A DNA stretch of 64,000 nucleotides from Dehalococcoidia bacterium (lineage in GTDB: Bacteria; Chloroflexota; Dehalococcoidia; Lucifugimonadales; UBA3495), in assembly GCA_021295965.1 (NCBI GenBank), contig JAGWBI010000003.1, positions 115,860 through 179,859 on the forward strand, read 5' to 3'. Below are positions 9,046-20,623 of the stretch, piece by piece. The notes under the pieces were generated by a model that worked only from the letters and a program-made list of their open reading frames with translations, was not told the DNA's origin and ran no database searches. Every line of letters begins with the position of its first letter. Positions within the stretch are counted from its first letter, which is position 1. Position numbers and translations under genes: made by a program.

Positions 9046-10212
9046 CTAAACTGAAGCCAAGGTGAAATCTACATTTTCAGGGCGGAGAGGGTTGGCTTGG
9101 GTGTCGCCAATCAATTTTGCTTGCAGCACGGTTCGGCAGCGGCGTTTGACTTCTTCGCGTCGGCGGGTCAGATCGGCGAAAAAGCCGCCCACGTTTTCTT
9201 GGACCGCAGCCTTGGTGCCCAGGCCCAATTGGCCGTTACTTCCTGACGCGCCCAGCCCCAGATGGCGCGATTGGTCAAAATCGGAGAGTTGAAATCTGGG
9301 CTGTAACTGGGCAGGTTCACCAGGCGGAGGTTCAGGCCAGGCGTGGTCAGGTAGGCTCTGAGGGCGTCGCCCCGATGGGCTGGCGAATTGTTCCAGATCA
9401 CCGTCAGCGGTTGGGTGTGTCGCGCCCGTCCGCCACTGGCGGACCGCAGGAAGGCAGTGGCGGCTGCGGAGTTGCTGTTGCCCTCCAGTTCCATCAACTC
9501 CACCTCATCAGTCTCCAGGCACACTGCCGAAGAATAGCCAGCCTTCACCCCACGGCGTGGGCTGGTGGAGTCCACCAGCGCCGGTTCTCCCTTCACTACC
9601 CACTTGCCACGTAGGTCCGCATCGGCCCGAAAATGGGTCTCGTCGGCGAAGAATATCTTGCCCCCCGTTCGTCTGGCCGCCGCCGTCAGGGCAGCGTACT
9701 TCGCCACAAAGGCTTCCCGCCGTGCCGGATCCGCCATGACCAACCGCTGCCTGGGCCGCTTCAGCACAAACCCCAAACGGTGCAAGTAGTTCAGATCCGC
9801 CTGTGGCGGACTACGGCTCAGCGTCAAGCCAAAACGGTCCCGTACAAATTGCCGCACCGCCTTCCAGTTCCAGTTGGATGGATCGATGCCGGCTTGGGAC
9901 GGCAATCCCTGCACCACCGCCTTCAACTCGGCCCGCTGCTCCACACCCAACGCGGGGGGAACCACCTGTCTGCTCGAAAACCAGCGCCTTGGGGCCGCCC
10001 TCAGCAAACGCCTTGACCCATTGGCCAACGGTGTGCGCATCACGCTTCAAGGCGCTGCCCACCGTCGCCGCCGTCCACCCCTGGGCCAGCAGCCATCCGC
10101 CAGAGGCGGATCATCGCTCCCGTTCCCCGGGCGTCGGCGCTCGATACATCCGCCGCCGCACCTCAGCCTCGTCCATCCGCCACTGTTCCAGCAACCCGAC
10201 CATCTCCTGCAT
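9046..10212 (-). pseudogene. IS630-family DDE transposase, frameshifted
   Basis: The reading is in pieces. An N-terminal HTH segment starts with ATG at 10212 (EQWRMDEAEVRRRMYRAPTPGERER) and hits a stop near 10110. The next piece is TVGQWVKAFAEGGPKALVFEQTGG, with a frame change near 9960. The long catalytic piece carries IFFADETHFRADADLRGKW and the downstream catalytic Asp region VIWNNSPAHRG, NLPSYSPDF. A last frame change near 9230-9280 leads to the C-terminus KAAVQENVGGFFADLTRRREEVKRRCRTVL. Three copies of the palindrome TCCGCC-NNN-GGCGGA sit inside it (9429-9443, 9796-9810, 10096-10110). The expected catalytic WDNSPAH reads WNNSPAH, consistent with decay. Confidence 0.85.
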
Positions 10213-14803: not shown

Positions 14804-14970
14804 GGGTTTTGCACAGGGCAATCGCATTTCAAACCGGCTCACCCGCCACTCCTGCGGAAGCAGGAGTCCAGAAGCCGAAAAGCAAGCAAACCTGTAACGA
14901 ATCTACTATTTTGGCCACTGGATTCGACGGATGCCTTCCGGTCCGAATGCGATTGCCCTGGGGTTTTGCA
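14804..14970. mobile_element. MITE-like element with 10-bp target duplication (copy A)
   Basis: A 147-bp element (14814-14960) is bounded by perfect 15-bp terminal inverted repeats, CAGGGCAATCGCATT and its complement. The exact 10-bp direct repeat GGGTTTTGCA flanks it on both sides (14804-14813 and 14961-14970), the signature of transposition with a 10-bp target duplication. It contains no gene; inside is another palindrome (ACTCCTGC/GCAGGAGT). A second copy with the same ends is at 18382-18608. Confidence 0.85.
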
Positions 14971-15014
14971 CGGATGAACGGGACAGGAGGGACGCGACGG
15001 TTCCGCCGCCGGAG

Positions 15015-15092
15015 GAACGCTCCTTCGGCGACGAGATTGCCACGCTGCGCTCGCAATGACCGTTCTGGTGAAACTGGGTACACGCTAGTTGA
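15015..15092. repeat. dispersed GAGATTGCC repeat with GTGAAACTGGGTAC tail
   Basis: The core CGAGATTGCCACGCTGCGCT is followed by CGCAATGAC and, after a short spacer, GTGAAACTGGGTACACG. This is the uninterrupted form of the repeat, which elsewhere carries a 15-base palindrome inserted after GATTGCC(A). Confidence 0.7.
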
Positions 15093-15148
15093 GCGGCTGG
15101 TTGCCGGGTGTATTGCGGATGGAGGGACCAGGAAAAACGGGTGGCGGG

Positions 15149-15718
15149 CTAGGTTGGGGGGTCGTGGGGAGGGGGGAAGGGGTCGGCGGTGCGGCACCTG
15201 AGGCAGTTCACGGGGTGACCGGCATGGGGCGGATCGGGCGGTAGGCCGACGGCGACGCGCAATTCGCCGATATTCTTGACGGGCGGCAGGGGCGGCACAA
15301 GGCCGGAGCCGTCGCCCAGGCGCTCGACGATGTCGCGGACCCGGGGCGGGTTGCGGTGGCCGTCGATGACGAACTCCACGTCGTTGACGAGGCGACGCAC
15401 GCGGCGGTACATGCGCAGGAGGGCAAATCGGCGCCGGCGCGGGTCCACGGAGTCGAGCCACTGCGGGGTAAGGGCGTGCACCTGACGGAAGGTCTGGATA
15501 TGGCCGTTGGTGAGATGGCCGTCGCGGATAACCCAATAGAGGGCCGCCATCAGCTGGCGGCGGGAGGAGTGGCGCAGGCCGGCATTGACCGCCGCCGCGG
15601 TGGCGGCGTGGCTGGCGGAGCGACGTAGGGCGTCGGCGGCACGGTCGGCGCGTTCATTGAGAATGTGCCGGTGTGAACGATCGAGGTATAACCGGCTGGT
15701 GTAGCGGTGGCGTTTCAC
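15149..15718 (-). CDS. hypothetical Arg/His-rich protein, 189 residues
   Basis: I do not recognise the family. The frame has strong G/C preference at third codon positions, so it looks genuinely coding. The product is very basic (many Arg and His) and helical through residues about 20-130, with SSRRQLMAALYWVIRDGHLTNGHIQTF and RRRFALLRMYRRVRRLV. It ends in a Pro-rich tail with a CLRC pair that could bind metal together with nearby residues. GTG at 15718 is preceded by only a weak CGGAA. It lies between two MITE-like elements. Confidence 0.55.
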   Translation of the reverse strand: MKRHRYTSRLYLDRSHRHILNERADRAADALRRSASHAATAAAVNAGLRHSSRRQLMAALYWVIRDGHLTNGHIQTFRQVHALTPQWLDSVDPRRRRFALLRMYRRVRRLVNDVEFVIDGHRNPPRVRDIVERLGDGSGLVPPLPPVKNIGELRVAVGLPPDPPHAGHPVNCLRCRTADPFPPPHDPPT

Positions 15719-15770
15719 GGTTCCGATGGCGATTGCTCCATTTGCTGGGGTGTTTGGCGATTGTTGTGAG

Positions 15771-15977
15771 AGGCAGGATTTCAGATCGTTGTCAGCGGAC
15801 GGCCGGGGGTACGCAACTATTTGCCCTACTTTTTCGTGTACTCAGCACGCCAGAGGCGTACCTGCGGTGACGCAGTGGGGCAATGCGGGCGATTGGTCGA
15901 ATGGTAGGCCACGGCTTGCCGACTGGGTCGGTTGCGATTTTTGCTGACGGGTTGGCCGTCGATCTGAAATCCTGCCT
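15771..15977. repeat. 207-bp segment bounded by 18-bp inverted repeats
   Basis: AGGCAGGATTTCAGATCG (15771-15788) is exactly repeated in inverted orientation at 15960-15977. No target duplication is obvious. It encloses a GCACGCCAGAGGCGTACCTG palindrome (about 15846-15865), a relative of the one at 55570. A 14-base match to the arm occurs at 32776-32789. It could be a decayed MITE. Confidence 0.6.
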
Positions 15978-16373
15978 TTTGGGGTATTGGGGTGTAACAG
16001 CTGTTTTGCCTTGGCTGTATTTAGGATATATGTTCTGGTGTGATGGTCGCAAGGGGCTTTTGTCAGAAGCGGGATTTTCGGGATCACCGGGCTTGACAGA
16101 ATTTCCGGTTGGACGGAACGCCGGGCTGACCGTGGCTCGCGATAGCGTGTGCAGCGCAGGCGCTAACCAGTACCGTGAGTGCAAGTACGGCCACGGCGGA
16201 GTGGTCGGTTCCTCCGCGGATTGCTCGATGTTGGGACTAGCCCGGTCGCCATGGACGGAAAGTTCCGTGCAATTAGTGGCGGCAAGGAGGAGGAGGGCGA
16301 GGGAGATGTCCTCATAGAAACCGAGCTTGGTGAACATCACCCGGCGGTCGATGAGCTCCGGTGGAGGATAGAT
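15978..16373. other. intergenic remainder, no supported gene
   Basis: Frames of up to about 180 codons cross this stretch on both strands, but they run through the inverted-repeat segment and have poor codon use. No convincing gene or RNA is seen between the inverted repeat and the AIPR stop codon. Confidence 0.4.
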
Positions 16374-18173
16374 TTATACCTCCACTTTTGTTTCTCCCGC
16401 GGGAATCGTCCCGTCATCCGAGGGTTCACCGTGTGCAGGATATCTTAGGATGTCCTGGAGGAGTTGAGGGCCTTTTGCTACTTGGTCTGTAGCTCCCAGA
16501 TCCTCGTACAATTTTTTCACCACAGCTAGGCTTTTTTTGATCGCCGCGTCGTCCAAACGGTCGACGTCGAATTTTGCTATTTCTGCCGGTGGGAGCGGGT
16601 GTTTTGCTGCACCAGCCACCGCGTGCATGCCTACGTAAAAACGAAGGTTACTGCGATCTTTGCGCACGACGTCGAGGCTATTGGATTTCAGGGCTTGCTC
16701 TATCTTCCGCATGGCCTGCACGCACACGTAGTACACATGAACCGGATAATCTGCGTTGAACACTTTTGCATAGTCCTCGTCGGTCTTCAAAAGTGATGAC
16801 GGTCGACCCCTGGCGGTATCTGGACGACGCAGCAGTATCGCCATGACAGCCTGCGCCAGATACGGGATGTCTATGATCACAGCGCGGGGAATGCCAGCGT
16901 TTTTGTAGAAATTCTTCCGCCGATCATAGTACAACCCGTGAGATTTGAGGTAGTCCTCAATGTCTCGTTGAATTTTATCCGTCGCCCGTAGTGAAGCGCG
17001 CTGGATGGACGTTTGGCTGTTGGTGGCCTTGATGATCCGGTCACGGCTCTCATCATCATCCGGGACCATAACCTTTATCAAGATGTTCCTGTCCGTTTCA
17101 GGGTCCTCAGTTTCGTTAAAGTATTTGTATACTTCCCGCGAGGTTTGAAGGCCATTGACGATTTGAGGATCCTCGATGGTTAAAGTTTTTCCGCCGCTCA
17201 TGGTGACTTCCGAAGCAATTATGGACACCCCGTTGTTCAACCACCAGAAATCTTCGCTTAGCGGCGTCGTCAGAGTTTCTTGGATCTCTTCGTTAACTTC
17301 AGTGGCACCTTGATAATCGCGCACATTGGATTCGAACACATGGCTGCGAAACTCCCCTTGTTCGTCCGTTATGAACGCAAAGAAATCACGCAAATTGGCC
17401 AAACAAACGAAGCCACTTTTCGCGGAAACTGTGATGGGATTTTCGGCCAAAGGTAAGAGATAGTTCCGAGGTGGCTGGCGACGAAACAACTCCACCAATT
17501 CGTTTGCTCCCAAAAACCTGAAATCAAACATGCACGCTGGCAACTGTCCCTCGACCGCTTGTTTTAACAGCCCAACTTTACGTTGAACTGTCCTACCAGG
17601 CTTGTCTCCTTTGCAAGCGTATACGAATGTCAGCTTGAGTGAGGGGTTTTTGATTGTCAGTTCTTTGTAAACGGCGTGGAAACGTGTCATTAACTCCACA
17701 ACCTGCTCGTTAAATATTTCGCTAAGTTCACCGGCGTCGCTGTCTAGATTTAGCAAATCTTCGCTGACGGTAATGAACCGCTCCACTGGTGTTTCTTGAA
17801 AACCGTTGTGGGTTTTGGCTTGAACCACGATCAGTTCGACGGATATGTTCTTCCGGAGATCGGCAAAATTCCATTCTTCTTGGATGAGTTGCCCGTTGAC
17901 TAACAGGTATAGACCATCGATTCCACCGTCGCCGCCATCCCCGACTAACCCGGATTCGATCTCATCGGATGAGATATCGAAATCTTTGAGGGCTTGCTCC
18001 GCAGCAAAGTACTCAAAAAAATGATCTGGCGTGTCGTCCGGATCAAGCGCCAGACGATACTGTTCCAATAATTGGTTCAAGATGGTGCGCTGGTTCGAGA
18101 CCATTATTACCTCGGCATGCAATGGTGTCGCAATATCGAAAACAAACGTTGACGGATCAATGTGGTGGTCCAT
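16374..18173 (-). CDS. AIPR family protein (abortive-infection phage resistance candidate)
   Basis: A 599-residue protein with the AIPR core: NVRDYQGATEVNEEIQETL, FWWLNNGVSIIASEV and LTIEDPQIVNGLQTSREVYKYF, then ILIKVMVPDDDESRDRIIKATNSQTSI. The N-terminal part has DGGIDGLYLLVNG and, about 30 residues later, VELIVVQAKTHNG. This fits a PD-(D/E)xK-like nuclease fold (D86, Q118, K120 with ATG at 18173). AIPR proteins are associated with phage defence by abortive infection; activity here is inferred. GGAG lies seven bases before ATG 18173. The gene is AT-richer than its neighbours and lies among MITE-like repeats, suggesting horizontal acquisition. Confidence 0.85.
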   Translation of the reverse strand: MDHHIDPSTFVFDIATPLHAEVIMVSNQRTILNQLLEQYRLALDPDDTPDHFFEYFAAEQALKDFDISSDEIESGLVGDGGDGGIDGLYLLVNGQLIQEEWNFADLRKNISVELIVVQAKTHNGFQETPVERFITVSEDLLNLDSDAGELSEIFNEQVVELMTRFHAVYKELTIKNPSLKLTFVYACKGDKPGRTVQRKVGLLKQAVEGQLPACMFDFRFLGANELVELFRRQPPRNYLLPLAENPITVSAKSGFVCLANLRDFFAFITDEQGEFRSHVFESNVRDYQGATEVNEEIQETLTTPLSEDFWWLNNGVSIIASEVTMSGGKTLTIEDPQIVNGLQTSREVYKYFNETEDPETDRNILIKVMVPDDDESRDRIIKATNSQTSIQRASLRATDKIQRDIEDYLKSHGLYYDRRKNFYKNAGIPRAVIIDIPYLAQAVMAILLRRPDTARGRPSSLLKTDEDYAKVFNADYPVHVYYVCVQAMRKIEQALKSNSLDVVRKDRSNLRFYVGMHAVAGAAKHPLPPAEIAKFDVDRLDDAAIKKSLAVVKKLYEDLGATDQVAKGPQLLQDILRYPAHGEPSDDGTIPAGETKVEV

Positions 18174-18371
18174 CGGCAATCTCCAACTGCCTCAGCGTAT
18201 GCGCCAAGCCAGCGTAAGTCCTGCCACGTCATTTTTAACGTTCCGACCACAACCATTTTAAAATCCACAACAGCCATCGGTTGAATTCAACGTATCCTTG
18301 GAACGTTATCGTCAACCAAAGACGGTCGCACGGTATTGTATCACCGGAGTGCCATGAGCTGTGCCAGATAC

Positions 18372-18618
18372 CTCCAAGCCTCAGGGCAATCGCGTCTTGC
18401 GGTAATCGGTATAATCAGCGCACTCGAACATTCTGTACGTTGATACTGCCCGTTAGTGGCCTCCTTCTAGATACTGCGATTCAGCCCGATTTGGTTCCAA
18501 GTAGGCGAACACAAGCCTCACCAAGGTGTGCTTTGACTGTCGAAAGTCGCGGCGGCACGGGGTTTGGTCCGGTATCACTGCGATCCCAATTTAGACGCGA
18601 TTGCCCTGCTCCAAGCTT
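18372..18618. mobile_element. MITE-like element with 10-bp target duplication (copy B)
   Basis: A 227-bp element (18382-18608) has perfect 16-bp terminal inverted repeats CAGGGCAATCGCGTCT, the same ends as copy A at 14814-14960. Direct repeats CTCCAAGCCT (18372-18381) and CTCCAAGCTT (18609-18618) flank it, 9 of 10 identical. The interior differs from copy A and encodes nothing. The remaining gap from the AIPR gene to the next gene (18174-18904) holds no other feature I can support. Confidence 0.82.
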
Positions 18619-18904: not shown

Positions 18905-20623
18905 ATGCCGCAGGCTAATGAGTTGATTGTGCAGTTTTTGGAGGAGGCTGGGATCGATGCGGTGTTTGGGATTCCCGGGGGCGGGACGGGGCAGATTTTT
19001 GAGAAGTTGGTGGGGAAGGAACCGGCGATCAACACGTACCTGGCGCGGCACGAGCAGACGGCGGCGATCATGGCCGACGCCTACGGGCGGGCGACGGGGA
19101 GGCCGGCGGTGATCATGGGGCAGGGGCTGTTCATGGGATCGAACGCGTCGTTCGGGATCATGGAGGCGATGCTGAGCAGCAGCCCGATGCTGGTGCTGAC
19201 GGACACGTCGGACGGCGGTGTGGGGCAGCATCCGGCGAACCAGTCGGGGGCCGGCGAATACGGTAGCATCGACCTGCACAACATCTTCCGGTCGATGACG
19301 AAGTACACGACGCTGGCGACGTCGCCCAAGGAGGCGGCGCTGGGGGCGCAGCTGGCCATCAAGCACGCGATGAGCGGGCGGCCGGGGCCGACGTGCCTGC
19401 TGATGCGGTCGGCGTCGATTGGCGGCGAGGTTGACCTGGAGTCGCCGCCGTTCATCCACGACACGGCGGGGTATCTCAACACGGCCAAGCCGCAGGCGGC
19501 GCCGGCGGACATCGAGAAGGCGGTGGAGATACTGTCGCAGTCGCGGCGTCCGGTGATCGTGGCGGGCAACGGGGTCCACATGGCGGGGGCGCACGGGCTG
19601 CTGGAGCAACTGGCGGAGCAGTGGAACGCGCCGATTGCCACCAGCTACAAGGGGAAGTCGGCCATCGCGGAGACGCATCCGCTGGCGCTGGGCATGGTGG
19701 GCATCTACGGGCAGGAGGCGGCGAACCGAGCGGTGGGTGACGCCGATACGGTGGTGGTCGTGGGGGCGAAGCTGAGCCCGCAGGACACGGTGCGGGAACG
19801 GCCCAACGTGTTCAATCCGCGGGGTCAGCGGATCATCCAGATCGACATTGACGACCGGAACGCCGGTTGGACGTTCCCGGTGGAGCTGGGGCTGATCGGA
19901 GACGCGGGGAGCATCCTGGGGCAGTTGGTGGAGGCGTCGGCGGACGCATCGGTCGGCACTGCCGGCAATCGGAACGAGTGGGCCGGGGCATTGGCGGGAC
20001 GGAAGACGGAGGCTGGGTTCTACGAGGACGCCGGACTGCATACCGACTCGTCGCCGGTGCTGCCGCAGCGGGTGGTGCGGTTGCTGCAGGAGACGATGCC
20101 CAAGGATACGGTGTACGCGCTGGACGCGGGGAACAACCGGACGTGGATGGCGCACCTGTTCCAGTCGCAGCAGGCGCATACGTTCTTCTGCCCGGGCGGG
20201 ACGGCCGGCATGGGCTGGGGACTACCGGCGTCGGTGGGATTGCAGATCGCCTATCCGGACCGGCAGGTGGTGGGCGTGACGGGGGACGGCGGATACATGA
20301 TGACGGTGAACGCGCTGTCCACGGCGATGCAGTACAACCTGCCCATCGTGTGCGTGGTGTTCAACGACGGCGCGCTGGGGATGGTGCGGCACCACCAGGC
20401 GCCGGGGCAGTACATCGCATCGGAATTCGCGGAGACGGACAACGCGGCGGTGGCGCGAGGGTTCGGGTGCTTCGGCGTGCAGGTGTCGGACTCGCGGGAC
20501 CTGGCCGGGGCATTGCAGGATGCGCGGGCGTCGGGACTGCCGGCGGTGGTGGACGTGCTGATCGACCGGGGGCCGAGCCCGGACGACTGGCGGGCGGATA
20601 TGCGGACGTCGGGGGAGACTTAG
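18905..20623 (+). CDS. TPP-dependent enzyme, acetolactate synthase-like (copy 2)
   Basis: A 572-residue TPP enzyme. The catalytic glutamate lies in LARHEQTAAIMADAYGRATGRP (residue about 47), the central domain in EILSQSRRPVIVAGNGVHMAGA, and the cofactor motif in GVTGDGGYMMTVNALSTAMQYNLPIVCVVFND. Like copy 1 it has no adjacent small regulatory subunit, so it may decarboxylate or ligate a 2-oxoacid rather than serve isoleucine/valine synthesis. AGGAGGT stands seven bases before the ATG. Divergence from the copies at 12991 and 42978 indicates separate functions rather than recent duplication. Confidence 0.85.
   Translation: MPQANELIVQFLEEAGIDAVFGIPGGGTGQIFEKLVGKEPAINTYLARHEQTAAIMADAYGRATGRPAVIMGQGLFMGSNASFGIMEAMLSSSPMLVLTDTSDGGVGQHPANQSGAGEYGSIDLHNIFRSMTKYTTLATSPKEAALGAQLAIKHAMSGRPGPTCLLMRSASIGGEVDLESPPFIHDTAGYLNTAKPQAAPADIEKAVEILSQSRRPVIVAGNGVHMAGAHGLLEQLAEQWNAPIATSYKGKSAIAETHPLALGMVGIYGQEAANRAVGDADTVVVVGAKLSPQDTVRERPNVFNPRGQRIIQIDIDDRNAGWTFPVELGLIGDAGSILGQLVEASADASVGTAGNRNEWAGALAGRKTEAGFYEDAGLHTDSSPVLPQRVVRLLQETMPKDTVYALDAGNNRTWMAHLFQSQQAHTFFCPGGTAGMGWGLPASVGLQIAYPDRQVVGVTGDGGYMMTVNALSTAMQYNLPIVCVVFNDGALGMVRHHQAPGQYIASEFAETDNAAVARGFGCFGVQVSDSRDLAGALQDARASGLPAVVDVLIDRGPSPDDWRADMRTSGET

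Follow-up and report, generated by a model that had tools for sequence, protein, structure and literature searches.

Two short elements, here called copies A and B, lie less than 4 kb apart in the window (the whole 64,000-nucleotide stretch of DNA analysed here), and they raise the question of which enzyme moves them and where their interiors come from. A sequence-only reading had given both copies perfect terminal inverted repeats (TIRs), of 15 bp in A and 16 bp in B, flanked by direct repeats that agree at 10/10 positions in A and at 9/10 in B. Direct reading of the sequence confirms these features and their coordinates (Table 1). Neither copy contains a gene, and their earlier description as non-autonomous holds: they are short and non-coding, have TIRs and target duplications, and belong to a set with multiple copies, as MITEs do. 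The window contains 16 exact 12-mer inverted pairs at 60-350 bp spacing, and among these only copies A and B have matching flanks (>=8/10). Shuffling the window 100 times under a first-order Markov model never produced inverted 12-mers whose flanks agreed at 9/10 positions.

Table 1. Positions of the two elements and their parts in the window.
Feature	Position	Strand	Description
Copy A	14814..14960	+	ISAs1-type MITE, type A, 147 bp, end CAGGGCAATCGCATTTCA
Copy A, left TIR	14814..14828	+	15 bp
Copy A, right TIR	14946..14960	-	15 bp
Copy A, left target duplication	14804..14813		GGGTTTTGCA
Copy A, right target duplication	14961..14970		GGGTTTTGCA
Copy A, first REP hairpin	14845..14868	+	GCCACTCCTGCGGAAGCAGGAGTC, CGTC-REP type
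Copy A, second inverted REP	14917..14931	-	CTGGATTC/GACGGAT, approximate remnant, from by-eye comparison of elements
Copy B	18382..18608	+	ISAs1-type MITE, type B, 227 bp, end CAGGGCAATCGCGTCTT, without REP
Copy B, left target duplication	18372..18381		CTCCAAGCCT
Copy B, right target duplication	18609..18618		CTCCAAGCTT, 9/10

The shared end sequence is not confined to the window. The genome assembly of this member of the Dehalococcoidia (86 contigs, 3.23 Mb, 86.6% complete) contains 43 exact occurrences of CAGGGCAATCGC and none of a reversed control pattern, and 22 complete elements could be resolved. The 10-bp duplications looked for on both sides of such ends are exact in 18 of the 21 elements with readable flanks, while two of the remaining three match at 9/10 positions and L020 has an exact 9-bp match. 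Type A (132-164 bp) comprises copy A and 19 others, and type B (227 bp) comprises copy B and L022, which are 88% identical to each other; the second 227-bp type-B copy is located at G000:C27:17684-17910.

Insertion of copy A is supported by comparison with related genomes. Its left flank can be aligned in 13 genomes of the same genus, and none of them (0/13) carries the element. In several relatives, the sequence just past the junction proceeds to the right-hand flanking DNA of copy A and includes approximately one copy of the 10-mer, in line with the single copy that the sequence-only reading had expected at empty sites, while in the remaining relatives the sequence diverges too early for the junction to be judged. 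The empty site in G008 (L118) reads CCGGGGTTCGGTTTTTTGCATGGATGA, and CGGTTTTTTGCATGGATGA in this relative compares with an occupied site in which the element is placed between CGGGTTTTGCA and GGGTTTTGCACGGATGA. In G011, the empty site is CCGGGGTTCGGTTTCTTGCGTCGATGA, versus CCGGGGCCGGGTTTTGCA and GGGTTTTGCACGGATGA on either side of copy A. For copy B, no empty site could be aligned in the relatives, because its flanks are not conserved.

ISAs1-family insertion sequences (ISs) have ends starting with CAGGG and duplicate 8-10 bp of target DNA. The parent of copies A and B was at first presumed to belong to this family, and the assignment was then tested. A PF13808 search detected transposases in genomes of the same genus, several of which are bordered by the exact ends. 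These same-ended ISAs1-family ISs are 1188-1241 bp long; perfect ends together with exact 10-bp duplications are present in the ISs of G013 (two copies), G009 and G010 (four copies), and those of G012 and G001 have matching ends and a duplication that is not intact. The three IS transposases that were scanned, from G010 and G013, match NF033564 (transpos_ISAs1) with E values of 4e-130 to 5e-129 and contain the domains PF13808 and PF01609. Thus, the predicted parent transposase with these ends and a 10-bp duplication exists in sister genomes, but its presence in the same genome, which is common for such MITEs without being indispensable, is not borne out by the available assembly, in which no intact ISAs1 element was found at 86.6% completeness and only a transposase fragment is located at the end of contig C67.

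The ISAs1 elements of the genus form two sublineages, approximately 66% identical in DNA and ending in ATTTCA and GTCTTA. Type-A ends are identical to those of the ATTTCA sublineage over 16-18 bp in most copies (18 bp in copy A), and type-B ends to those of the GTCTTA sublineage over 17-20 bp (17 bp in copy B); a small subgroup, L019/L020, matches the sublineages over only 13-15 bp. Both ends and duplication length are therefore those of an ISAs1-family IS. The earlier observation that copies A and B share their ends and differ in their interiors is correct as far as the common CAGGGCAATCGC is concerned, but the two copies are not sisters and are cognate to different sublineages. Likeness to the ISs is limited to ends identical over 12-18 bp and the 10-bp duplication, with a cognate NF033564 transposase in sister genomes; the window elements, at 147 and 227 bp, are non-coding and have the ends alone in common with them.

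Judged from these sequence comparisons, copies A and B are very probably MITEs that depend for their movement on ISAs1-family DDE transposases acting in trans. Such an enzyme would bind the TIRs, starting with CAGGGCAATCGC, and cut out or copy the element, and insertion at a staggered cut would generate the 10-bp target duplication. Type-A elements would be served by the sublineage ending in ATTTCA and type-B elements by the one ending in GTCTTA.

In the interior of type A, a spacer joins a pair of hairpins in inverted orientation, (C)CGTCATTCCCGCGAAAGCGGGAATCCA and CGTCACTCCTGCGGAAGCAGGAGTCCA. The family displays the GTC tag, 8-bp stem, 4-base loop, CC tail and inverted pairing of CGTC-1 REP dimers, and its interior is a dimer of CGTC-tagged, dRS3-like REP hairpins. 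Copy A is a reduced member: comparison by eye with L031 and L037 shows that its second hairpin is deleted, and the retained hairpin carries a GCC variant of the tag. With a simple motif definition, 27 REP motifs are found in the 3.45 kb of the 22 elements versus 10 in 132 kb of flanking sequence. Genome-wide, the REP pattern has 88 matches, of which approximately 24 fall within ISAs1 MITEs by coordinates. In the same genome, the REP core is also present in other frames, namely CATAGGASTTACGCA (L269, L270) and CAGGGCCTTTYCAAAGT (L273, L274, L277), and the frames of L280 and L282, read by eye, are probably of the GGGC-TGT-GTCAA type; further matches have no visible frame. At least 14 copies of the same core, including the spacer, are found in the CATAGGASTTACGCA frame in G004. 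The search did not reveal a parent for this frame, and a 1.8-kb CATAGGASTTACGCA pair in G012:C21 was rejected as a candidate, as it encloses ordinary genes. Type A may have originated when a CGTC-tagged REP dimer came between two ISAs1 ends, and the resulting unit would then have multiplied as an ISAs1 passenger.

The REP dimer brings a different mover into consideration, namely a RAYT (Y1 tyrosine transposase) that spreads copies A and B as REP/REPIN repeats, with the ISAs1-like ends being incidental. Some REP dimers of the genus indeed lack terminal repeats, but the exact 10-bp duplications contradict this explanation, and TIRs that agree with ISAs1 ends over 15-18 bp speak against it, as does the lack of a REP in copy B. 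A search for PF01797, with positive controls, gave no match in 14 genomes of the genus, including the host of copies A and B, and transposition by a RAYT is therefore highly improbable. MITEs often originate by internal deletion, and the copies could likewise stem from an ISAs1 element that is not among the full-length ones found, in particular since the type-B interior has no recognised source. Yet six ISs from the two sublineages match either MITE type in the TIR only and not in the interior, indicating that the MITEs are not simple deletion products of the ISs found. Considering in addition that the REP dimer forming the type-A interior is present elsewhere with other ends, derivation from a missing full-length element appears unlikely.

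Whether the REP dimer was acquired once or repeatedly is a separate question, on which elements from other phyla are informative. An exact-pattern scan found ISAs1-type ends in many phyla among the matches listed. Complete elements with 10-bp duplications contain CGTC dimers in Alphaproteobacteria (Sphingomonas azotifigens, Bradyrhizobium pachyrhizi) and in one Nitrospirota MAG, while many other ISAs1-ended elements among the matches listed (Acidobacteriota, Defluviimonas, Porphyromonas) contain no REP; the dimer is thus a recurrent but not an obligatory cargo. A single ancestral capture, followed by inheritance or transfer, would agree with the spacer sequence that is common to the core copies within the genus. 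However, REP sequences and spacers differ between the Sphingomonas, Bradyrhizobium and Nitrospirota elements, and the same core occurs in other frames of the same genome; a single capture is somewhat unlikely. A bolder proposal, with chances somewhat below even, is that in several phyla CGTC REP dimers recurrently travel between the ends of DDE transposons, in ISAs1 and in other frames, and have been repeatedly captured and spread without RAYTs.

REP-carrying MITEs have a precedent in QMITE2 of Coxiella burnetii, a MITE that measures 150-190 bp, has 7-11 nt direct repeats and occurs in truncated forms resembling plain REPs (PMC5896051). Its REP is GTAG-type (PMC5896051), whereas the REPs described here form a CGTC-type dimer and the ISAs1 parent has been identified. 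CGTC-1 REPs, which have been equated with dRS3 in Neisseria, are characterized by a GTC tag, an 8-bp stem starting with AT, a 4-base loop, a CC(A) tail and an arrangement in inverted dimers; they were reported without a dedicated transposase, and a 2013 survey left their mode of spread open (PMC3733652). The type-A hairpins agree with them in tag, stem, loop, tail and inverted-dimer layout, but many of the CGTC REPs described here are located within ISAs1 terminal repeats with target duplications. In Halothiobacillus neapolitanus, CGTC-1 dimers likewise lie in an inverted-repeat frame, within 41-bp palindromes, although this frame, compared by its description, has a different sequence and was not tied to a transposon (PMC3733652). 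No description of a CGTC-REP dimer framed by ISAs1 ends, with its parent identified, was found in the limited open-access literature, and for ISAs1-derived MITEs the search yielded only papers in which the terms occur. On their own, copies A and B are routine, ordinary ISAs1 MITEs, and the REP interior carries more weight. For some of the CGTC REPs, ISAs1 ends provide a concrete vehicle: a defined share of those in one genome has known ends, a known duplication and an identified transposase, with no RAYT found. The question of their spread can thus be put to the test with a single transposase and a single mini-element.

Several other repeats and genes surround the two copies or recur with the family. 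Copy A is located upstream of a minus-strand TPP-enzyme-like gene, 141 bp from its likely start (14673). Copy B lies between a second TPP-enzyme-like gene (18905-20623, plus strand) and a gene for an AIPR-domain protein (PF10592; 16374-18179, minus strand), which belongs to a family linked to phage defence and is found in a stretch absent from most relatives. A second repeat (15771-16083) contains a perfect 18-bp inverted pair, AGGCAGGATTTCAGATCG, with arms at 15771-15788 and 15960-15977; relatives have it too, as do other parts of the genome (C45, C57, C24, C77, C40, C8). A further hairpin repeat, GTCATTGCGAGCG... / GGCAATCTC, occurs at 15029-15060 and adjoins many ISAs1 MITEs in their flanks, often in a CTCACGCGTACCC...GGGTACGCGTGAG frame. 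A high-copy unit of approximately 130 bp with GGCCTGTGCAAAGT ends, seen in L009 upstream of 1501 and at G000 C27:8536-8664, encloses another pair of hairpins, CTCATGGTGAGCCTGTCGAACCATG / CCTTCGACAGGCTCAGGATGAGCGG, and is common in G000, G001 and G004. Finally, the minus strand at 9168-10043 contains a transposase-like ORF with DDE_3 and HTH_33 domains.
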